Assembly: GCF_019880405.1 (NCBI RefSeq)
Contig: NZ_CP082269.1
Coordinates: 3,720,001-3,784,000 of the forward strand
Length of the DNA: 64,000 bases
Direction of reading: 5' to 3'
DNA from: Enterobacter sp. C2
GTDB taxonomy: Bacteria; Pseudomonadota; Gammaproteobacteria; Enterobacterales; Enterobacteriaceae
A model generated the notes under the pieces. The model saw nothing but the letters and a program-made list of their open reading frames with translations, did no database searches and was not told where the DNA came from. Shown one piece after another: positions 1 to 16,956 of this stretch (positions within the stretch are counted from its first letter, which is position 1; each line of letters begins with the position of its first letter). Position numbers and translations under genes: made by a program.

Positions 1-264
1 CACTTCATCACTGCGCCAAAGCGCAAACCGAAGATTGACATCGTAGTCAATGGCCGCGAAGTCCAGGTATGTGATAGTCACCAAACTTTCGAGCAGTTAG
101 TCGCTATCGCTTACCCAGGTGAAGCTCCAGCACCTGAGATTGTATACTCAATTACATATCGCGGCGTGGCCTCAAAGCCACATAGTGGTGAATTGGCCGC
201 TGGTGGCTTTGTTGAAGTAAAAAATGGGAGCGTGATCAATGTCAGCCGCACCATTCAGTCTTAA
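1..264 (+). CDS. Ubiquitin-like (multiubiquitin-type) protein, 3' part only
   Basis: The gene is open from the window edge; the last 87 codons are visible and end at TAA 262-264. The residues form one beta-grasp-like unit of the bacterial multiubiquitin family. It opens with IDIVVNGREVQV, then has a helix region (HQTFEQLVAIAYPG), the PEIVYSITYRG strand and a glycine turn before GGFVEVKNGSVINVS. The family is often tandem, so earlier copies may lie to the left. The protein ends in VSRTIQS, with no terminal Gly-Gly. The stop lies 26 nt inside the next gene (E2/E1 fusion), so the two are probably translationally coupled. Inferred role: the modifier that the downstream enzyme adenylates and transfers. 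Family assignment is from recognised sequence pattern, not a search. Confidence 0.8.
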   Translation, partial: HFITAPKRKPKIDIVVNGREVQVCDSHQTFEQLVAIAYPGEAPAPEIVYSITYRGVASKPHSGELAAGGFVEVKNGSVINVSRTIQS

Positions 265-1414
265 TAGTGACCTTATGCGCTTGCGTGAGGAAGGATACTA
301 CGTACAAATCGTGGGTGGTTTCTTAGTGATGCGTGAAGTGCCGTATGTTAACGCGCAGTTGGAAGTTAAGACCGGCACGCTCATCTCAAGTCTTTGCATG
401 TCTGGAAACGTTACTCAAAAGCCAGAGCCGCACACGATTCACTTTGATGGAGACTATCCGTGCAATTCCCAGGGTGCGCCCATCCAAGCTATTGCACATC
501 AGAGCGTTGCGGTGGATCTGGGACATGGGTTGAGTGCTCAGCACATGTTCTCCAGTAAACCCGGGCCAGAGGGTTACAGCGATTATCATCAGAAGATGAC
601 GACGTACGCGACAATCATTTCTGGCCACGCAGCGATCCTCAGACCTGACGCTACGCCACGTGTGTTTAAAAATCCCGACGAGGAGGATGGCTGTGTATTT
701 AACTATCTGGAAACTGCTTCAGACCGAGTGGGAATAGGTGCGTTGACCGCACGACTTGAAGGTCAACGTATCGCTATCCTTGGCACTGGTGGAACAGGAT
801 CCTATGTGCTGGACCAGTTGGCGAAAACTCCAGTGAGTGAGATACGCCTCATCGACGGTGATGATTTTCTTCAACACAACGCTTTTCGTGCCCCAGGCGC
901 GCCGTCGATAGACACTCTCCGTGAGGTGCCAAAGAAAGTGGATTACCTAGCGGGTATCTACAGTAATATGCACCGCCATATCGTGCCACATGCAGTGCAA
1001 ATGGACATAGATAATCTCAACCTTCTGGACGGAATCAACTTCGCCTTCCTTTGCATGGACGCTGGCGAGCCGAAGCGCTTGGCGGTGCAGAGGCTAGAGG
1101 ATATGAGAGTATCCTTCGTAGACGTGGGAATGGGCCTCGAGCTAGTAAACGGCTCGCTTGGTGGTATCCTCCGTGTGACGGCAAGTACCCCCAATAAGCG
1201 CGATCACTTTGGCAAGCGCGTGTCTTTCGAAGGTGGGGGAGTTGAAAATCTTTACGCGTCAAATATCCAAGTCGCAGAACTAAATATGATGAACGCGGCA
1301 CTTGCCGTAATTAAATGGAAGAAACTCCTCGGCTTTTATCGTGACCTAGAAAACGAACATCACTGTTCCTATACAACCGACGGAAATATGCTGCTGAATG
1401 GTGACTCGCTATGA
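239..1414 (+). CDS. E2-like/E1 (ThiF-type) fusion for a ubiquitin-like protein
   Basis: 391 aa. Residues about 1-135 resemble the prokaryotic E2 family E found beside multiubiquitin genes: GYYVQIVGGFLVMREVPYV, then HTIHFDGDYPCNSQGAPI near 65-82, then GYSDYHQKM near 112-120. Residues about 170-385 are a ThiF/E1 adenylation domain with the nucleotide loop ILGTGGTGS at 180-188, acidic LIDGDDF at 204-210, R217 in HNAFRAPG, and FLCMDAGEPKR at 270-280. Candidate thiol residues in the E2-like part are C53 and C75; which one, if any, is catalytic is not clear. The start is supported by GGGAG at 226-230, 8 nt upstream. The stop overlaps the DUF6527 gene start as ATGA. Likely role: activates the Ubl C-terminus and passes it to a target. 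Systems of this type have been linked to phage defence. Confidence 0.85.
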   Translation: MSAAPFSLNSDLMRLREEGYYVQIVGGFLVMREVPYVNAQLEVKTGTLISSLCMSGNVTQKPEPHTIHFDGDYPCNSQGAPIQAIAHQSVAVDLGHGLSAQHMFSSKPGPEGYSDYHQKMTTYATIISGHAAILRPDATPRVFKNPDEEDGCVFNYLETASDRVGIGALTARLEGQRIAILGTGGTGSYVLDQLAKTPVSEIRLIDGDDFLQHNAFRAPGAPSIDTLREVPKKVDYLAGIYSNMHRHIVPHAVQMDIDNLNLLDGINFAFLCMDAGEPKRLAVQRLEDMRVSFVDVGMGLELVNGSLGGILRVTASTPNKRDHFGKRVSFEGGGVENLYASNIQVAELNMMNAALAVIKWKKLLGFYRDLENEHHCSYTTDGNMLLNGDSL

Positions 1415-1869
1415 TTCGTCATAACCAGCTTACCCCCTGCTTTGTAAAGGGGGTACCGCGTATACTTGAACCTGGCATTTTGTACGTTTCAATGGAATAC
1501 GGTACCGTGGTCCACAGTTGCTGTTGTGGCTGTGGCCTTGAAGTAGTGACACCTCTGACTCCAACAGACTGGCGTCTAACCTTTGATGGGGAAGCAATTT
1601 CGCTTTGGCCATCGGTAGGCAACTGGAATTTACCCTGTCGATCGCACTATGTGATTCAAGGTAATCGAGTGGTAGAGGCTGGGCATTGGGACAAAGCTCA
1701 GATTGATGCAGAGAGGCGTCGCGACAAAGCGGCTAAGGCGCGCTACTACTCACAAATTGAATCTCCTGGGGCTCAGAAAGAGTTGAAACCGAAGCCTACC
1801 AATGGGCCTGCTGGGACGATGGCTAACCGAGAGAGCATTTGGGCCAAGCTACTGCGATGGTTAAGTTAG
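1411..1869 (+). CDS. DUF6527 family protein of the Ubl operon
   Basis: 152 aa, start coupled to the E1 gene by a 4-nt ATGA overlap. Residues 36-42 carry a dense cysteine cluster (SCCCGCG). Later come TPTDWRLTFDG, the PSVGNW segment near 67-72 and CRSHYVI near 76-82, the recognisable DUF6527 pattern. The Cys/His spacing suggests a bound metal; a conserved Ser and His could form part of a hydrolase site. In related operons this family is the third gene after the Ubl and E1/E2 genes, so a Ubl-processing or deconjugating peptidase is a reasonable inference, not something the sequence proves. The tail from about 95 on is basic and low-complexity, ending in a short amphipathic helix (IWAKLLRWLS). 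Confidence 0.75.
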   Translation: MIRHNQLTPCFVKGVPRILEPGILYVSMEYGTVVHSCCCGCGLEVVTPLTPTDWRLTFDGEAISLWPSVGNWNLPCRSHYVIQGNRVVEAGHWDKAQIDAERRRDKAAKARYYSQIESPGAQKELKPKPTNGPAGTMANRESIWAKLLRWLS

Positions 1870-2421: not shown

Positions 2422-2493
2422 ATGATTAAATGGATGCGGAAAGTTTTATTGTCAGATTGCACCCCCTCAGTTATATGCTTTTTTTACTATTAA
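2422..2493 (+). CDS. Possible 23-codon leader ORF or displaced 5' end of the membrane-protein gene
   Basis: ATG 2422 has the best ribosome binding site here (GAGGAG 2408-2413, 8-nt spacing). It reads MIKWMRKVLLSDCTPSV and ends at TAA 2491-2493. The frame contains a T7 run (2479-2485). A -1 shift or one extra T there would join it to the long membrane-protein frame. Alternatively, its stop lies 2 nt before ATG 2496 of that frame, which would allow termination-reinitiation. I cannot tell a real leader, a slip site, a frameshift mutation or a homopolymer sequencing error apart from one sequence. Confidence 0.35.
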   Translation: MIKWMRKVLLSDCTPSVICFFYY

Positions 2494-2975
2494 AAATGGA
2501 TTATTCAATATTATCTAGTTGGCCGCAGAATCAATCAATTGATAATAGAGTTAAACTAGCTTTGTTATTTATACACTTGATTATGATATTTGCAATTCTT
2601 GCCCCACTTATAAGTCGGTTATTATCACGTGTAGGTAATGAAAGATTAAATAAATTTATCGCTCTACCAAAATCGGATAAAAACGTCACATATATTGATT
2701 TATATGACTTTTTAAGCGGCCTTGCTTTATCTGCGTTTTACTTGTCCATCCTACTTTTTACAATGAAGGAAGTTTACGAGGTAACTGGATGGGTTATTTC
2801 CGGCATATATGTTTTTTTAATGTTTATTTCTGCCATTTTAATTGCCTCACTTTCATTAATGAGATTTATATGGCTGTTTGTTAAATATAATAAATATACC
2901 TATTCAGTTGTTGCTTTACTTGCGAGTAGTATGTGTATGGCAGTTCTAGGTGTAGCCATGAGAATGGCCTCATAA
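2430..2975 (+). CDS. Hypothetical multi-pass membrane protein of the leuX island
   Basis: 181 aa from the first ATG. Not recognised. Three to five hydrophobic segments are visible: LALLFIHLIMIFAILAPLI, LSGLALSAFYLSILLFTM, a long stretch around GWVISGIYVFLMFISAILIA with LMRFIWLFV, and SVVALLASSMCMAVLGVAM at the C-terminus. A soluble loop near residues 70-85 is polar (NKFIALPKSDKNVTYID). The DNA is much more AT-rich than the flanking Ubl operon or the core chromosome, which points to separate acquisition. The start is doubtful: ATG 2430 lies 16 nt from the only good ribosome binding site, which fits the out-of-frame ATG 2422; 2475 and 2496 are other in-frame ATGs. It could be an effector of the neighbouring defence-like operon, but nothing in the sequence shows this. 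Confidence 0.6.
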   Translation: MDAESFIVRLHPLSYMLFLLLKMDYSILSSWPQNQSIDNRVKLALLFIHLIMIFAILAPLISRLLSRVGNERLNKFIALPKSDKNVTYIDLYDFLSGLALSAFYLSILLFTMKEVYEVTGWVISGIYVFLMFISAILIASLSLMRFIWLFVKYNKYTYSVVALLASSMCMAVLGVAMRMAS

Positions 2976-3331: not shown

Positions 3332-4591
3332 TTATCTTAGAAACTGTTTCCCGAAGTCAAACGGACTAACCACCCTCTCCCGATTCGCATCCAGATAATC
3401 CGCCCACCACTGCACCATTAGCCTCCGCTCCCCCAGATGCTCGGCCTTATGAATGTAAGCCGCACGCACAGAATTTCGTTCCTGATGACTCATCTGCCGC
3501 TCCACCGCATCCCTCGACCACAATCCCGATTCAATCAAAGAACTACACGCCATAGTCCTGAAGTCATGTCCACATACTTCCGTTTTCGTGTCATAACCCA
3601 TCACTCGCAGAGCCTTGTTAACCGTATTCTCACTCATCGGCTTACGCGGATCATGATCGTCCACGAAAATCAGCTCTCGGTTCCCGTTCATGCATTTGAT
3701 CTTTTCCAGAATAGCTAAGGCCTGACGCGATAAGGGAACAGGATGAGGTGTCCGCATCTTTGAACCACGCTGAGAATGCTTGACACCTTCCAGTGGCTCA
3801 CGCTCGCCCGGAATCGTCCACATAGCCGTTTCAAAATCTACTTCTGACCAGCGGGCAAAACGCAGCTCGCTTGAACGGATAAAAACCAACAAAGTGAGTT
3901 CAACAGCCAATCGGGTTAACGGCCTGCCGGAATAATGATCGATGCGGTGAAGTAATTCAGGAATGCGATTAAGTTCCAAGGCAGCACGATGCTGTCTTTT
4001 CACCGTAGCAACTGCACCGGCAATCTCTTGCGCGGGGTTGTAGTCAATTAAGCCGCTCTGAACGGCAAAGCGCATAATCGCGGTAGTACGCTGCTGTAAA
4101 CGGGCGGCAACTTCAAGTCGCCCGGATGACTCGACGGCTTTAATGGGTACAAGAAGATCCCGAGTCTTAAGCTCCGCAATGTTCCGCTTTCCGATAGCGG
4201 CAAAGAGATTATCTTCCAGGCTTTTCAATACACGAGCACTATGCGATGCCGACCACTTCTGATTGCTGGCGTGCCAGTCTCTGGCAACCACTTCAAACGT
4301 TATCGCCTCTTGCTCCTGCTCTACCTTAACGGCTTTCTTGCTCTCACTGGGATCCATGCCATTAGCTAACTGCTTACGCGCATCGTCACGTCGTGCCCTT
4401 GCATCCGCCAGCGACACTTCAGGGTATTTCCCCAATGCCAGCATCTTTTCTTTACCACCGAAGCGATAGCGTAACCGCCAGTATTTCGAGCCGTTAGGGT
4501 GAACCAGCAATACCATGCCTTCACCGTCAGTAAGTTTATAGGCTTTTTCTTCAGGCTTAGCCGTACGAACCTTTACATCACTCAGAGCCAT
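3332..4591 (-). CDS. P4-type tyrosine site-specific integrase
   Basis: 419 aa from ATG 4591, which has AAGGA about 9 nt upstream. A longer in-frame ATG at 4627 would add 12 residues, but it lies inside the repeated TGTACCC(A/G)CA sites and lacks a good ribosome binding site. The N-terminal DUF4102-like arm-binding domain reads MALSDVKVRTAKPEEKAYKL and LRYRFGGKEKMLALGKYPEV. The catalytic domain shows the first Arg in RSSELRFARW, the box with His and Arg in GHDFRTMA, the later His in QMSHQ and the nucleophile Tyr in AAYIH. All needed residues are present, so the enzyme looks active. It lies just downstream of the leuX 3' end, the usual position for an integrase using a tRNA attachment site, and marks 1-4789 as one end of an island. 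Confidence 0.93.
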   Translation of the reverse strand: MALSDVKVRTAKPEEKAYKLTDGEGMVLLVHPNGSKYWRLRYRFGGKEKMLALGKYPEVSLADARARRDDARKQLANGMDPSESKKAVKVEQEQEAITFEVVARDWHASNQKWSASHSARVLKSLEDNLFAAIGKRNIAELKTRDLLVPIKAVESSGRLEVAARLQQRTTAIMRFAVQSGLIDYNPAQEIAGAVATVKRQHRAALELNRIPELLHRIDHYSGRPLTRLAVELTLLVFIRSSELRFARWSEVDFETAMWTIPGEREPLEGVKHSQRGSKMRTPHPVPLSRQALAILEKIKCMNGNRELIFVDDHDPRKPMSENTVNKALRVMGYDTKTEVCGHDFRTMACSSLIESGLWSRDAVERQMSHQERNSVRAAYIHKAEHLGERRLMVQWWADYLDANRERVVSPFDFGKQFLR

Positions 4592-4616
4592 GTTGAGTAT
4601 CCTTTCAAGGGTTCTG

Positions 4617-4666
4617 TGTGGGTACAAACATTATCGAACCGGGTTATACCCACATTTGTACCCGCA
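4617..4666. repeat. Three copies of T(A/G)TACCC(A/G)CA between integrase and leuX (candidate arm-type sites)
   Basis: The 10-mer occurs at 4617-4626 (minus strand, TGTACCCACA), 4645-4654 (plus, TATACCCACA) and 4657-4666 (plus, TGTACCCGCA). They lie directly upstream of the integrase start, between it and the tRNA. Repeated short sites here are typical of integrase arm-type binding and autoregulation. The binding role is inferred; the repeats are seen. Confidence 0.55.
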
Positions 4667-4789: not shown

Positions 4790-4874
4790 TGGTGCCGAAG
4801 GCCGGACTCGAACCGGCACGTATTTCTACGGTTGATTTTGAATCAACTGCGTCTACCGATTTCGCCACTCCGGC
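4790..4874 (-). tRNA. leuX: tRNA-Leu (anticodon CAA), island attachment site
   Basis: 85 nt on the minus strand. The acceptor arms GCCGGAG and CTTCGGC pair with one G-U, followed by ACCA encoded in the DNA. The anticodon arm is GTTGA-TTCAAAA-TCAAC with anticodon CAA. A long variable arm (GTAGAAATAC) and a T-arm with GGTTCGAGTCC are present. It matches the leuX type, a well-known integration hot spot in enterobacteria. Because the integrase lies downstream, the island attachment core is expected within the 3' half of this gene; the other att copy is outside the window. Confidence 0.95.
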
Positions 4875-9622: not shown

Positions 9623-10705
9623 TTACGCCCGGCGCATCATCAGCCAGACGCTGATGGCGAGGAACAGGGCGCTCGGCAGCAGCGCGCCGATAATCGGCGG
9701 GATGCCGTACACCAGCGTTAGCGGGCCGAAGATCTGGTCCAGCACGTAGAAGACGAAGCCGAAGCTGATCCCAGTGACCACGCGAACGCCCATCGGCACG
9801 CTGCGCAGCGGGCCAAAGATGAACGACAGGGCCATCAGCATCATGACCGCCACCGACATCGGCTGGAAGATCTTACTCCACATGTTGAGCTGGTAGCGCC
9901 CGGAGTCCTGCCCGGTAGACTTCAGGTACTTCACATAGTCGCGCAGACCGCTGATTGAGAGCGCATCCGGCTCCAGAGCGACCACGCCAAGCTTGTCCGG
10001 GGTCAGGTTGGTCTTCCAGGTGCCGCTAACGGTCTGGGAGCCGGTGATCTGCTTGGGATCCTGCAGGTTGGACTCGTCTACCTGCGACAGTTTCCAGAGC
10101 TTCTGCTGCTCGTCAAATGACGCGTGTGCCGCGTAGCGCACCGACTGCAGACGACGCTGATCGTTGAAGCTGTAGATGCTTACGCCGTTAAGCTCGTTGG
10201 TGCCGGAGACCTGCTGGATGTAGACAAAGCTGTTGCCATCTTTGGCCCACAGCCCCTGCTGGGTAGAGAGCATCGCGCCGCCGTAAATGGCCTGAGCACG
10301 ATAGGTCCTCGCCATCTGCTCACCCTGCGGAGCGACCCACTCACCGATGGCCATAGTTAGCAGCACCAGCGGGATCGCCGTCTTCATTACCGACAGCGCC
10401 ACCTGAAAACGGGTAAAGCCGGAGGCCTGCATGACCACCAGCTCGCTGCGCTGGGCCAGCATTCCTAAGCCCAACAGCGCACCCAGCAGGGCCGCCATCG
10501 GGAAGAAGACCTGAATATCTTTTGGAATGCTGAGCACGGTGTACATCCCCGCGCCCAGTGCATCGTAGCTCCCCTGCCCGGCACGTTTGAGCTGATCGAC
10601 AAACTTGATGATGCCGGAGAGCGACACCAGCATGAACAGCGTCATCATGATGGTGGTGAAGATGGTTTTACCGATATAGCGATCGAGTACGCCAAAAGCC
10701 TGCAT
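9623..10705 (-). CDS. lptG: LPS export ABC transporter permease LptG
   Basis: 360 aa, family length. Six membrane segments flank a periplasmic jellyroll-like domain: an N-terminal pair (FTTIMMTLFMLVSLSGIIKF and the following region to FPMAALLGALLGLGML) and a C-terminal set ending LPSALFLAISVWLMM. With LptF, LptB and LptC it extracts lipopolysaccharide from the inner membrane and pushes it to LptA. The start overlaps the lptF stop by one base (TAATG), the usual lptFG coupling. Confidence 0.97.
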   Translation of the reverse strand: MQAFGVLDRYIGKTIFTTIMMTLFMLVSLSGIIKFVDQLKRAGQGSYDALGAGMYTVLSIPKDIQVFFPMAALLGALLGLGMLAQRSELVVMQASGFTRFQVALSVMKTAIPLVLLTMAIGEWVAPQGEQMARTYRAQAIYGGAMLSTQQGLWAKDGNSFVYIQQVSGTNELNGVSIYSFNDQRRLQSVRYAAHASFDEQQKLWKLSQVDESNLQDPKQITGSQTVSGTWKTNLTPDKLGVVALEPDALSISGLRDYVKYLKSTGQDSGRYQLNMWSKIFQPMSVAVMMLMALSFIFGPLRSVPMGVRVVTGISFGFVFYVLDQIFGPLTLVYGIPPIIGALLPSALFLAISVWLMMRRA

Positions 10706-11805
10706 TATAACGCTCCTTTACGCACGAAACGGGCGCGTATGCGGCGCATCGGCACCGTGTCCCACAGGTTCAGCGCAACCGCCAGCGCCAGATAGAGCAG
10801 GTTCACTGCCCACATCCAGATCATCGGATCGAGCTTGCCCTTGCCGCCGTTGGACTTCAGCGAGGTCTGCACCAGGAAGAAGACCAGGTAGAGCAGCATC
10901 GCGGGCAGCATCGACAGCACGCGGCCCTGGCGCGGGTTCACCACGCTGAGCGGCACCACCATCAGCGCCATGACAAAGACGGCGAAGATGAGGGTTAAGC
11001 GCCAGTGCAGCTCTGCGCTCGCCCGCGACGTGTCGGTGTGCATCAGGGTGCGCATGTCCATCTGCTCGGTATCGTCTGGATCCAGCGCCACCGCCTGATG
11101 GCCAACAATCGCCTGGTAGCCCTGGAAGTCGGTAATGCGGAAGTCGCGCAGCAGGGCGGTGCCTTCAAAGCGCGTCCCCTTGGTCAGGGTGACCACCTGC
11201 GAACCGTCTTTGCGCTGCGAGAGCTGGCCGGAGTCAGCTACCACGACCGATGGGCGCGCGTTGCCTTTAGGGCGCAGCTGCGCGAGGAAGACGTCGTGGA
11301 AGTTGCTGCCGCTGACGCTCTCGATAAACAGCACCGAGTTACCGTCGGTGGCCTGCTGGAACTGCCCCTGCGCCAGCGCCGCCATGCCAGGGTTGGCTTT
11401 GGCTTCCGCCAGCACCTCATCCTGGTGGCGCGAGGACCACGGCCCGGCCCACATCACGTTAACGGCGGCCAGAATGCCGGTAAAGATCACCAGCACCATC
11501 GCGGCCTTCACCAGCACGGCCTTGCTCAGGCCGCAGGCGTGCATCACCGTGATCTCACTGTCGGTGTAGAGCTTGCCAAAGGTCATCAGCAGCCCGAGGA
11601 ACAGGCTAAGCGGCAGGATCAGCTGCGCCATTTCAGGTACGCCCAGCCCTAATAAGGAGAGCACCAGATTTGTCGGGATATCACCGTCAACGGCTGCACC
11701 GAGGATCCGCACCAGCTTCTGACAGAAGAAGATCAGCAGCAGGATGAATAGGATCGCAAGTTGACTTTTTAGCGTCTCCCGAACCAGATATCTTATGATT
11801 ATCAC
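10705..11805 (-). CDS. lptF: LPS export ABC transporter permease LptF
   Basis: 366 aa, same length and N-terminus (MIIIRYLVRETLKSQLAILF) as E. coli LptF. Six membrane segments with a central periplasmic domain (about residues 125-270). Partner of LptG in the LptB2FG transporter. It is transcribed divergently from pepA across a 256-bp region. Confidence 0.97.
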   Translation of the reverse strand: MIIIRYLVRETLKSQLAILFILLLIFFCQKLVRILGAAVDGDIPTNLVLSLLGLGVPEMAQLILPLSLFLGLLMTFGKLYTDSEITVMHACGLSKAVLVKAAMVLVIFTGILAAVNVMWAGPWSSRHQDEVLAEAKANPGMAALAQGQFQQATDGNSVLFIESVSGSNFHDVFLAQLRPKGNARPSVVVADSGQLSQRKDGSQVVTLTKGTRFEGTALLRDFRITDFQGYQAIVGHQAVALDPDDTEQMDMRTLMHTDTSRASAELHWRLTLIFAVFVMALMVVPLSVVNPRQGRVLSMLPAMLLYLVFFLVQTSLKSNGGKGKLDPMIWMWAVNLLYLALAVALNLWDTVPMRRIRARFVRKGAL

Positions 11806-12061
11806 TATAAATACGCCCGTAAAAACCCGTCTTTTTGCAGGAAAATCGCTTGTTTCATGGCTTAAACGTCATTTATTCTCTTGAGTCGTCGAAAGCATCG
11901 CTAAGATGTAAGAAACTTAGCGGATGCACGTTTCAGGATATGTTCTGACGTGTCGAACTAAGATTAACACGAAGTCACCGCAACAGCGGACATGAGTTAC
12001 GAAAGCTTGCAATTCTATCCGTAGCCCCGGCTGTTGTCTTTAAGATTCAGGAGCGTAGTGC

Positions 12062-13573
12062 ATGGAGTTCAGTGTAAAAAGCGGTAGCCCGGAGAAACAG
12101 CGGAGTGCCTGCATTGTGGTTGGCGTGTTTGAACCGCGCCGGCTCTCCCCTATCGCCGAGCAGCTCGATAAGATCAGCGACGGCTACATCAGCGCGCTGC
12201 TGCGCCGTGGAGAGCTAGAAGGCAAGCCGGGACAGACGTTGTTGCTGCACCATGTTCCTAACGTCCTGTCAGAGCGCATTTTATTGATTGGCTGCGGCAA
12301 AGAGCGTGAGCTGGACGAGCGCCAGTACAAGCAGGTTATTCAGAAAACGATAAATACGCTGAATGATACCGGCTCAATGGAGGCGGTCTGCTTCCTGACC
12401 GAACTGCACGTTAAAGGGCGCAACACCTACTGGAAAGTGCGCCAGGCCGTTGAGACGGCAAAAGAGACCCTCTACAGCTTCGATCAGCTGAAAACCAACA
12501 AATCCGAGCCGCGTCGTCCGCTGCGCAAAATGGTCTTCAACGTGCCGACTCGTCGCGAGCTGACCAGCGGCGAGCGTGCCATTCAGCACGGCCTGGCGAT
12601 CGCCTGCGGCATCAAAGCGGCAAAAGATCTCAGCAACATGCCACCGAATATCTGTAACGCAGGCTATCTTGCGTCACAGGCGCGTCAGCTGGCGGACTCC
12701 AACAGCGAGAACATCACCACCCGGGTGATCGGCGAGCAGCAGATGCGCGAGCTGGGGATGCACTCCTATCTGGCCGTAGGCCAGGGCTCGCAGAACGAAT
12801 CCCTGATGTCGGTCATCGAGTACAAGGGCAGCAGCGATGCCGAAGCGCGTCCGATTGTGCTGGTGGGTAAAGGGCTGACCTTTGACTCCGGCGGCATCTC
12901 CATCAAGCCTGCCGAAGGCATGGATGAGATGAAGTATGACATGTGCGGCGCGGCGGCGGTGTACGGCGTGATGCGCATGGTCGCCGAGCTGAAGCTGCCG
13001 CTGAACGTGGTGGGCGTGCTGGCAGGCTGTGAAAACATGCCCGGTGGCCGCGCCTTCCGTCCGGGCGACGTCCTGACCACCATGTCCGGCCAGACCGTGG
13101 AAGTGCTGAACACCGATGCCGAAGGGCGTCTGGTGCTGTGCGACGTCCTAACCTACGTGGAGCGCTTCGATCCCGAGCTGGTGATCGACATCGCTACCCT
13201 GACCGGGGCGTGCGTCATTGCCCTCGGCCACCACATCACCGGCCTGATGTCGAACCACAACCCGCTGGCCCACGAGCTGATTGGCGCGTCCGAGCAGGCA
13301 GGGGATCGCGCATGGCGTCTGCCGCTGAGCGACGAGTACTACGAGCAGCTGGAGTCGAACTTTGCCGATATGGCAAACATCGGCGGGCGTCCTGGCGGGG
13401 CGATCACCGCGGGCTGCTTCCTGTCGCGCTTTACCCGGAAATACAACTGGGCGCACCTCGACATCGCCGGTACCGCATGGCGCTCTGGCAAAGCCAAAGG
13501 CGCAACCGGCCGCCCTGTCGCCCTGCTGTCGCAGTTCCTGCTGAACCGCGCCGGTTTCAACGGCGAAGAGTAA
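12062..13573 (+). CDS. pepA: Leucyl aminopeptidase PepA (XerA), M17 family
   Basis: 503 aa, the E. coli length. The M17 signature NTDAEGRL lies near residues 350-357; the metal ligands are carried by [16 protein letters not shown] and that signature, and GALGHH-like [10 protein letters not shown] follows. It is a cytosolic manganese/zinc aminopeptidase that releases N-terminal residues. In E. coli it also binds DNA in Xer recombination at cer/psi sites and in carAB control. SD CAGGAG lies upstream of the ATG. A REP element follows. Confidence 0.97.
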
Positions 13574-13591
13574 GCGTAAAACAGCAGTAAA

Positions 13592-13623
13592 TCGTAGGCC
13601 GGGTAAGCGTAGCGCCACCCGGC
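13592..13623. repeat. REP element after pepA
   Basis: The outer pairing GCCGGGT...ACCCGGC encloses AAGCGTAGCGCC, preceded by GTAG. The same family is seen inverted at 34776-34806. Confidence 0.7.
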
Positions 13624-13657
13624 TTCGCATTTAAAGTGACCACAAGAAGCCCCATAT

Positions 13658-14101
13658 ATGAAGAATGCAACGTTCTACCTTCTGGACAATGACACGCAGC
13701 AGGATGGCTTAAGCGCCGTTGAACAACTGGTGTGTGAGATTGCCGCAGAACGTTGGCGAGCAGGTAAACGCGTTCTGATCGCCTGCGAAGATGAGCGGCA
13801 GGCGGTGCGCCTCGACGAAGCCCTGTGGGCGCGTCCGGCCGAGCGCTTTGTGCCGCATAATCTGGCGGGCGAAGGTCCGCGCGGCGGTGCGCCGGTGGAG
13901 ATCGCCTGGCCGCAAAAGCGCAACAGCAGCCCGCGCGATCTGCTGATCAGCCTGCGGGTGAACTTTGCAGATTTTGCCACCGCTTTCACAGAAGTGGTAG
14001 ACTTCGTTCCTCACGAAGAAACTCTGAAACAACTGGCTCGCGAACGCTATAAGGCCTATCGCCTGGCTGGTTTCAACCTGAACACGGCAACCTGGAAATA
14101 A
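13658..14101 (+). CDS. holC: DNA polymerase III chi subunit
   Basis: 147 aa, E. coli length. N-terminus [12 protein letters not shown], then [16 protein letters not shown], the nucleotide-binding-like fold typical of chi. With psi it links the clamp loader to SSB at the replication fork. The stop shares one base with the valS start (TAATG), the conserved holC-valS coupling. Confidence 0.96.
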
Positions 14102-16956
14102 TGGAAAAGACATATAACCCCCAAGATATCGAACAGCCGCTTTACGAGCACTGGGAGCAGCAGGGCTACTTCAAACCGAATGGCGATGAGAGCCAGGAGA
14201 GCTTCTGCATCATGATCCCGCCGCCGAACGTGACCGGCAGTTTGCATATGGGCCACGCCTTCCAGCAGACCATCATGGATACCATGATCCGCTACCAGCG
14301 CATGCAGGGCAAAAACACCCTGTGGCAGGCCGGGACCGACCATGCGGGCATTGCGACCCAGATGGTGGTTGAGCGTAAGATTGCCGCTGAAGAGGGTAAA
14401 ACCCGCCACGACTACGGTCGCGATGCCTTCATCGACAAAATCTGGCAGTGGAAGGCAGAGTCCGGCGGCACCATCACCCGTCAGATGCGCCGTCTCGGCA
14501 ACTCCGTGGACTGGGAGCGCGAGCGCTTCACCATGGACGAGGGCCTCTCCAACGCCGTGAAAGAGGTGTTCGTTCGCCTCTATAAAGAAGATCTGATCTA
14601 CCGTGGCAAGCGCCTGGTGAACTGGGATCCGAAGCTGCGCACCGCGATCTCTGACCTGGAAGTCGAGAACCGCGAATCGAAAGGTTCCATGTGGCACATC
14701 CGCTACCCGCTGGCCGACGGCGCGAAAACCGCCGACGGTAAAGATTACCTGGTGGTCGCCACCACCCGTCCGGAGACCCTGCTGGGGGATACCGGCGTTG
14801 CGGTGAACCCGGAAGATCCGCGCTACAAAGATCTGATCGGTAAATTCGTGGTGCTGCCGCTGGTTAACCGCCGCATTCCGATTGTCGGCGACGAGCACGC
14901 CGATATGGAGAAAGGCACCGGCTGTGTGAAGATCACCCCGGCGCACGACTTTAACGACTACGAAGTAGGCCGTCGTCACGCCCTGCCGATGATCAACATC
15001 CTGACCTTTGACGGCGATATCCGTGAAAGCGCAGAGGTGTACGACACCAAAGGCAACGAAACTGACGTCTACTCCAGCGAGATCCCGGCAGCGTTTCAGA
15101 AGCTGGAGCGCTTTGCCGCCCGTAAAGCGGTAGTGGCTGCCGTTGACGCCCTTGGCCTGCTGGAAGACGTTAAACCCCACGACCTGACCGTACCGTACGG
15201 CGACCGCGGCGGCGTGGTGATCGAGCCGATGCTGACCGACCAGTGGTATGTCCGCGCCGACGTGCTGGCAAAACCGGCTGTGGAAGCGGTTGAGAACGGT
15301 GACATCCAGTTCGTGCCGAAGCAGTACGAGAACATGTACTTCTCCTGGATGCGCGATATTCAGGACTGGTGTATCTCCCGTCAGCTGTGGTGGGGCCACC
15401 GTATCCCGGCCTGGTACGACAACGAAGGCAACGTCTTTGTGGGCCGCACCGAAGAGGAAGTGCGTCAGGAGAATAACCTGAGCGCCGACGTAGCCCTGCG
15501 CCAGGACGAAGACGTGCTGGACACCTGGTTCTCCTCCGCGCTGTGGACCTTCTCTACCCTCGGCTGGCCGGAGAACACAGACGCCCTGCGTCAGTTCCAC
15601 CCGACCTCGGTGATGGTCTCTGGCTTCGACATCATCTTCTTCTGGATCGCCCGCATGATCATGATGACCATGCACTTCATCAAAGATGAAGACGGCAAGC
15701 CGCAGATCCCGTTCAAGACCATCTACATGACCGGTCTGATCCGCGATGACGAAGGTCAGAAGATGTCTAAATCCAAGGGCAACGTGATCGACCCGCTGGA
15801 TATGGTGGACGGTATCTCCCTGGCGGATCTGCTGGAGAAACGCACCGGCAACATGATGCAGCCGCAGCTGGCAGAGAAAATTGCCAAGCGCACCGAGAAG
15901 CAGTTCCCGAACGGCATCGAGCCGCACGGCACCGACGCCCTGCGCTTTACCCTGGCGGCGCTGGCCTCTACCGGCCGCGACATCAACTGGGACATGAAGC
16001 GCCTGGAAGGCTACCGCAACTTCTGTAACAAGCTGTGGAACGCCAGCCGCTTTGTGCTGATGAACACCGAAGAGCAGGATTGCGGCTTCAACGGCGGCGA
16101 GATGACCCTCTCCCTGGCGGATCGCTGGATCCGTGCCGAGTTCAACCAGACGGTGAAAGCCTTCCGTGAAGCGCTGGACAGCTACCGCTTCGATATTGCA
16201 GCGGGCATCCTGTATGAGTTCACCTGGAACCAGTTCTGTGACTGGTATCTGGAGCTGACTAAGCCGGTGATGAACGGTGGCTCTGAAGCCGAACTGCGCG
16301 GCACACGCAACACCCTGGTCACGGTGCTGGAAGGTCTACTGCGTCTGGCGCACCCGATCATTCCGTTTATTACCGAAACCATCTGGCAGCGCGTGAAGGT
16401 GCTTACCGGTAATACCGCTGACACTATCATGCTGCAACCCTTCCCGGCCTTCGATGCCGCCCAGGTTGATGAAGAGGCGGTAGCGGATACCGAGTGGCTG
16501 AAGCAGGCGATTGTCGCGGTGCGTAACATCCGCGCCGAGATGAACCTCTCCCCGGCTAAGCCGCTGGAGCTGCTGCTGCGCGGCTGTAGCAGCGATGCGG
16601 TACGCCGTGTAAACGACAACCGCAGCTTCCTGCAGACCCTGGCGCGTCTGGAGAGCATCACCCTGCTGCCTGCCGATGATAAAGGTCCGGTCTCTGTGAC
16701 CAAGATCATCGACGGCGCAGAGCTGCTGATCCCGATGGCTGGCCTGATCGACAAGGATGCCGAGCTGGAGCGTCTGGCAAAAGAGATCGCCAAAGTGGAC
16801 GTTGAAATTGGTCGTATCGAGAGCAAACTGGGGAACGAAGGCTTTGTGGCGCGCGCGCCGGAAGCGGTCGTTGCCAAAGAGCGTGAGCGTCTGACCGCCC
16901 TGGCCGAAGCGAAAGTTAAACTCGCCGAACAGCAGGACGTCATCAGCGCGCTGTAA
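14101..16956 (+). CDS. valS: Valyl-tRNA synthetase
   Basis: 951 aa, E. coli length. Class I signature [14 protein letters not shown] near 41-54 (HIGH-type HMGH) and KMSKS near 554-558 ([10 protein letters not shown]). The editing domain lies between, with [12 protein letters not shown] near 222-233. An anticodon-binding region and a C-terminal coiled coil ([17 protein letters not shown]) complete it. Charges tRNA-Val and hydrolyses mischarged Thr-tRNA. Confidence 0.98.

Follow-up and report, generated by a model that had tools for sequence, protein, structure and literature searches.

A probable mobile, self-regulated ubiquitin-like conjugation cassette in a tRNA-Leu island of Enterobacter sp. 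C2

The window analysed here is a stretch of 64,000 nucleotides of the Enterobacter sp. C2 genome (G000, positions 3720001-3784000), whose leftward continuation is referred to as L002 and whose other flank as L003; subtracting 15000 from an L002 position gives the window position. The left edge of the window falls inside a gene for a ubiquitin-like protein (Ubl) that starts 491 nt further left and is followed by genes for an E1-like protein and a DUF6527 protein. The whole gene array begins 5.3 kb left of the window, and comprises six co-directional genes on L002 separated by short gaps or overlapping (Table 1): a sigma-70-like gene (for which a TTG 42 nt earlier is likewise open), a gene for a 193-aa protein, a gene for an M78-UvrD protein with a degenerate nuclease part (these three are called the control trio below), and the three genes of the Ubl module. 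Two copies of a bipartite site, P1 and P2, accompany them. Further upstream of the sigma-like gene, a 533-aa ORF (L002:7712-9313) had no family match and is partly kept in one E. coli copy (L033).

Table 1. Features of the cassette and of the adjoining part of the island
Feature	Window position	L002 position	Strand	Remark
Sigma-70-like gene		9662-10453		left of window
P1 site, TTACCGT-N16-CGATT		10243-10270		inside sigma-like gene
193-aa gene		10450-11031		left of window
M78-UvrD-degenerate PD-(D/E)XK gene		11033-14443		left of window
P2 site, TTACCGG-N16-CGATT		14432-14459		before Ubl gene
Leader hairpin of Ubl gene		14455-14511
Ubl gene	1..264 (3' part)	14509-15264 (whole gene)	+	251 aa
DUF6791-ThiF (E1-like) gene	239..1414	15239-16414	+	391 aa
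DUF6527 gene	1411..1869	16411-16869	+	152 aa
181-aa ORF	2430..2975		+	also adjoins integrase in three E. coli copies
Tyrosine-type integrase gene	3332..4627		-	starts with TTG at 4627; 4591 also fits as start
tRNA-Leu(CAA), attachment site	4790..4874		-	17-nt repeat at 4796-4812

A preliminary description of the window had proposed a compact three-gene conjugation system carried as mobile cargo. The overlaps on which it drew (Ubl/E1, 26 nt; E1/DUF6527, 4 nt) agree with the ORF coordinates, the ThiF loop GTGGTGS was found in the E1 as ...ILGTGGTGSY..., and the families are secure by Pfam (Multi_ubiq, DUF6791 plus ThiF, and DUF6527). Conjugation-type Ubl, E1 and DUF6527 genes and their mobile setting stand, whereas the compactness does not: the three-gene appearance arose because the window edge cuts a six-gene cassette, which the leftward extension shows to have its own control module. 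The E2-like character claimed for the E1 found no support either (see below).

Mobility is indicated by the tRNA-Leu(CAA) gene, the adjoining integrase, the 17-nt repeat and the E. coli copies, in agreement with the cargo proposal. The 17 nt at the tRNA end (window 4796-4812) occur a second time at genome position 3702833; with the repeat at both ends, the island therefore measures about 22 kb. The E. coli counterpart of the integrase is annotated as a tyrosine-type integrase, and the 181-aa ORF probably belongs to the island backbone. By megablast, the cassette was present in 3 of 5426 E. coli genomes, adjoining tRNA-Leu in all of them and with all six genes in one. The other two copies (L032:11980-14654 and L034:12075-16264, with IS1 upstream) lack the sigma-like gene, the 193-aa gene and part of the helicase gene; they keep P2 and the Ubl module, which counts against the interpretation proposed below. 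One Klebsiella plasmid carries the cassette at 81% identity, adjoining Tn7-like transposition genes. DUF6791 itself is uncommon, being found in 8 of 398 genomes of the phylum, 5 of 369 of the class and 1 of 60 near relatives (each figure includes the own genome).

The Ubl was matched by the Pfam model Multi_ubiq at 5e-14 in the window fragment and at 8.3e-54, in three stretches, in the whole gene product, and it was similar to PDB 9cd2 (E 1.5e-26). Its C-terminus reads ...TIQS, without GG, and a terminal Ser was present in all 15 aligned Ubls paired with a DUF6791-E1; a wider Ubl listing also contains a terminal Ala (second Ubl of L100) and a terminal Val (a broken piece in L008). An oxyester would be a conceivable linkage. 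Ubls with other partners end differently: in GG for the one paired with JAB in L131, in FG for the one paired with E2 in L130, and with a C-terminal extension in other JAB-E1 types. On the viral contig L100 (9748-11725), a full Ubl-E1-DUF6527 core is accompanied by the second, convergent Ubl, ending NNA. The Ubl leader can form a hairpin near the ribosome-binding site, with z <= -2 in 16 of 22 cases against shuffles that preserve base composition only; its stems near the Shine-Dalgarno region vary in sequence between loci.

The E1 contains DUF6791 (1.9e-56) and ThiF (8e-10) and is also matched by PRK06153 models. Its similarity to Citrobacter BubCD (8.4e-10) is confined to the ThiF part, and its E1 domain can be aligned with the E1 domain of JAB-E1 proteins (prob. 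98.9). The N-terminus, previously described as E2-like, is DUF6791: Pfam gave no UBC match, and comparison with one E2/UBC protein, an E2-like extension (three sequences) and a JAB domain (five) yielded no significant match. The best candidate for such kinship, 24 columns against an E2-like extension (E 0.035), was rejected. The E1 retains adenylation-type residues. Two observations count against our interpretation: a Pfam search of the six cassette proteins revealed no separate E2 gene, and the E1 has no universal Cys, since C75 occurs in 35 and C272 in 25 of 38 aligned rows (duplicates included).

The third protein of the module matched DUF6527 at 2.7e-23 and has the motif C37-x3-C41, followed after 34 residues by C76-x2-H79. 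Across 40 hand-chosen DUF6527 proteins (long extensions, fragments and L071 left out), H35, the three Cys, S68 and H79 are conserved; the L071 protein has a Cys at the place of S68. The close E. coli relative WP_234029219.1 bears the name 'ubiquitination-like system serine protease family protein' in one RefSeq record and DUF6527 in a second, and the former name gave the idea that DUF6527 might be a serine protease. Sequence comparison of DUF6527 with PDB gave no significant match. DUF6527 was also found in 62 viral-contig loci, 57 of which had neither an E1 nor a Ubl match within the sequence fetched, and no E1 was found in the phage collection. These lone phage genes (viral contigs L041-L097) mostly encode proteins of near 90 aa. 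A PHROGs scan of the neighbours of five of them revealed major head, portal and head-morphogenesis proteins for three and none for two. Hypothetically, the lone copies could act in counter-defence; if they are deconjugases, they would flag phages that meet such systems.

Among 21 relatives of the sigma-like protein, 19 matched Sigma70_r4_2 (region 4) at E <= 0.1, the best at 3.9e-7. The copy of the cassette itself scored 0.011-0.018, below the curated cut-off, and this weak score speaks against our interpretation, as do the lack of any region 2 model among the matches of the 21 proteins and the annotation of some relatives as 'response regulator' instead. A further point against it is the absence of a secure domain in the 193-aa protein; a weak Xre-like HTH match was seen in 3 of 24 proteins of this kind. 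PDB yielded nothing significant for it, the top match (E 0.026) being an unrelated protein of the THO complex. In 15 of 15 proteins of the M78-UvrD type (we take M78 to be the same as DUF955), HExGH, Walker A, DE[YF]QD and four Cys are present, and none of these proteins has the acid of the RecB-type D-x-K signature; the nuclease looks dead. An intact protease motif combined with a DNA motor and a degenerate nuclease suggests sensing over cutting. Judging from gene order, the 193-aa protein may be the cleavage target of M78.

The relationship between the trio and the Ubl module was examined in 17 loci, each from a different species or plasmid, a set that leaves out the three E. coli copies. 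The DUF6527 gene follows the E1 gene in 17 of 17 and the Ubl gene precedes it in 16; the L009 sequence begins just before E1, too short upstream to score the trio. The trio is complete in seven loci and absent from eight, and L008 has a helicase piece at the contig edge. In the five trio-less loci scanned for upstream regulators (L007, L021, L025, L030 and L031), we found HATPase_c and MarR-like wHTH proteins (L007, CapK+CapS-like by layout, no STAS match), HTH_31 with M78 (L025), a sub-threshold M78 (L021) and HTH_3 genes (L030 and L031). The regulators of L025 and L007 resemble the ssDNA-triggered regulators of Bub operons.

Nineteen plasmid loci (L035, L126-L135 and L144-L151) were drawn from 73 and 77 records matching the 193-aa and sigma proteins and were chosen mostly for low identity. 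A clear Ubl, JAB or E1-type module adjoins in 16 of them and a probable one in L126 and L145 (sub-threshold Prok-JAB or ThiF, both with DUF7665); L132 has a trio but no Ubl module, with IS66 at that place, which counts against our interpretation. In L146 no helicase is annotated, and the sigma of L147 is of another family. The module types preceded by the trio comprise DUF6791-E1 with DUF6527, JAB-ThiF with DUF6527 (L128), E2 with ThiF and DUF6527 (L130) and JAB with a ThiF-like protein (L131). In the last case, a Rhizobium plasmid (L131:5037-13812), two divergent Ubl modules surround one trio, with the site upstream of both, and the Ubl ends in GG in one module and in QS in the other.

The P2 site, which is not palindromic, sits in the helicase-Ubl gap about 50 nt before the Ubl start. 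Of 18 trio loci, among them L033 as a close duplicate of L002, 16 have the pattern TTNCCG-N18-GAT there, against 0.02 loci per shuffle that preserved base composition only; the exceptions are L127, with the variant ATTCCGG, and L132, which has no module. From nine regions upstream of trio-less modules the site is absent in eight, and the ninth belongs to the second L131 module, which adjoins the trio. All 17 trio loci scanned have P1 (TT[AT]CCG-N18-GAT) at the same codon positions, 193-223 nt before the sigma stop, in a search confined to 150-260 nt before that stop; CGAT is present in 16 of the 17, with AGAT in L023. The bases stay constant while the residues ahead of each box vary. If the loci are taken as independent, the chance product under the codon usage of each is 10^-26, a value that is overstated because the loci are related. 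In eight loci fetched after the pattern had been fixed, some of them close kin of earlier ones (e.g. L151 and L134), the site lies before the module in seven (in L146 it precedes the first module gene), and the exception is L147, with its different sigma. P1 lies within the sigma gene in four of these eight; in L144-L146, which have the most distant sigmas, the first site is 60-90 nt upstream of the sigma gene.

On a larger scale, 24 trio loci (465,498 bp) contain 53 matches, 44 of them at P1- or P2-type positions by our own count, versus two in 116 other loci (1,394,907 bp), most of which are viral contigs that differ in base composition; the control set also includes L137-L143, seven own-genome loci chosen for a one-mismatch match, which biases it against the promoter reading. 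Exact matches in three whole genomes numbered 2, 1 and 2, all of them P1 or P2, with 0 in the backward control. The single exact match of the own genome is P2, and its P1 differs by one mismatch. With one mismatch allowed, the own genome yielded 12 matches versus 14 in the backward control, giving no sign of a sigma regulon beyond the locus. In every locus with both sites, the copies agree in the third base (A or T); we discounted this agreement as evidence, since the sigma tree permits a single change (L130 and L147 being outside the tree). Because the site is directional, has fixed spacing and travels with the sigma-like gene, P1/P2 is predicted, with good support, to be the promoter of the sigma protein. 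If the site is the sigma promoter, sigma would therefore drive both the sensor genes and the Ubl module. At the sequence level, the control trio is coupled to its output module by this shared site.

Taken as a whole, we consider it somewhat probable that the locus is a mobile, self-regulated ubiquitin-like conjugation cassette. By analogy, the M78-helicase would bind damaged or single-stranded DNA and, once activated, cleave the 193-aa protein and free sigma, much as CapP cleaves CapH. IrrE-DdrO and ImmA-ImmR are grouped with CapH+CapP as comparable systems. The freed sigma would transcribe the sensor genes (from P1) and the Ubl module (from P2), the E1 would adenylate the Ser-ended Ubl and attach it to targets, and DUF6527 may remove or process the Ubl, with protection in phage infection or DNA damage as the putative outcome. 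Damage sensing, cleavage and phage defence are thus roles that we infer for the cassette. More tentatively, a broader picture is possible, in which a transferable sigma circuit fired by the protease-helicase drives several kinds of Ubl conjugation, with a Ser-ended Ubl and an E1 without universal Cys, a DUF6527 deconjugase, and phage DUF6527 as counter-defence.

Among the alternatives, there is a real possibility that the cassette provides a general DNA-damage stress response on mobile elements instead of phage defence. The neighbours in L127 (ImuA, Y-family and error-prone polymerases and an SOS peptidase) are in line with this, and Bub operons, although numerous, are reported to lack demonstrated protection against phage (EMBO J 2026, PMC13373217). 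Against it, the cassette adjoins on its left a type I modification gene, identified by Pfam as HsdM; HsdS and HsdR were assigned by visual inspection. A different view of the bipartite site would make it the operator of an Xre-like 193-aa repressor cleaved by M78, with the sigma-like protein as co-activator or remnant. The weak HTH matches, the regulator-M78 order, which is like that of CapH-CapP, and the action of M78-type proteases on HTH partners all agree with this; it is nevertheless unlikely, as the site is asymmetric, is oriented toward the module, has a spacer fixed at 16 nt, as between -35 and -10 boxes, and is missing where the sigma belongs to another family (L147, a single case, whose 193-aa relative matches partly).

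The helicase protein might itself be the effector, attacking DNA in a Gabija- or AddAB-like manner under regulation by the Ubl module, since it scores well against the GajB-type and DRT-type helicase models of PADLOC; this appears improbable given a nuclease core that is degenerate while HExGH is invariant (15 proteins), and given the same Ubl module without helicase in 8 of 17 loci. Those eight loci, with Ubl-E1-DUF6527 and no trio, also agree with a three-gene conjugation system, as in the preliminary view, beside an unrelated neighbour cassette, which we regard as still more doubtful in view of the shared P1/P2 site, the conserved order and spacing, and the occurrence of the trio with several Ubl module types. 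A sulfur-carrier (ThiS/MoaD) pathway, suggested by the ThiF fold, is very improbable for three tandem Ubls that end in Ser without GG, in a cassette where no sulfurtransferase or cofactor gene was recognised.

With regard to known systems, the mobile, self-regulated cassette favoured here has a core already published as group 6e of the polyUbl operons (Iyer 2006, PMC1779556). As far as that text goes, the two agree in having 2-3 tandem Ubl domains (three Multi_ubiq stretches here), an E1 fused to JAB or 'X', a small metal-binding protein (putative in the cassette) and mobility, and DUF6791 may correspond to 'domain X'. The metal-binding motif given there, C-x3-C-x(35-38)-H-x2-C, is similar to that of DUF6527 with the last pair reversed. 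As a difference, 'helicase' and 'sigma' are absent from the main text of PMC1779556, and no promoter appears in the text consulted. In the literature searched, we recognised no description of the trio with Ubl modules; an earlier mention is possible. Bil systems are defined, according to the part of a review used here, by E2 (BilB) and JAB (BilC) genes, and the six cassette proteins had no Pfam match to either.

Multiubiquitin cassettes offer a further parallel. According to the portion of PMC4963859 available to us, 70% of Multi_ubiq proteins adjoin DUF955 loci with HTH partners, and a DUF955 protein and HTH stand by multiubiquitin, E1 and metal-binding genes, a layout that our cassette resembles. 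Such DUF955-HTH loci are read there as toxin-antitoxin addiction modules, whereas the evidence from the cassette favours transcriptional control.

The cassette core is related to Bub: its E1 domain is kin to BubCD (8.4e-10; PDB 9ea4) and its Ubl to multi-ubiquitin structures (the BubA reference structure being 9ea8), and in both cases regulators of DNA-damage type, putative in the cassette, lie upstream (PMC13373217, in part). It differs from Bub in the N-terminal DUF6791 of the E1, in the terminal Ser of the Ubl, and in its regulators, which are sigma, the 193-aa protein and the M78-helicase in the cassette and CapW, CapH+CapP or CapK+CapS in Bub; in the same portion of that paper, 219 of 544 Bub operons are tied to CapW or CapH+CapP and 59 to CapK+CapS, and ssDNA is reported to activate CapP, which cleaves CapH. 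The cassette resembles CapH+CapP in an M78-type protease (HExGH in 15/15) adjoining a small putative regulator and in its predicted DNA-damage logic. Unlike in CapH+CapP, its M78 is fused to a UvrD helicase with a dead-looking nuclease, and its output appears to be activation by a sigma factor. If this is true, it would represent a new bacterial way of switching on protein tagging, and the sigma promoter would provide an experimental on-switch for an otherwise silent operon, with TTACCGG-N16-CGATT as a DNA tag for finding more such cassettes. A cassette with sigma, a protease-helicase and a readable promoter would add a fourth kind of control to those of Bub-type operons.
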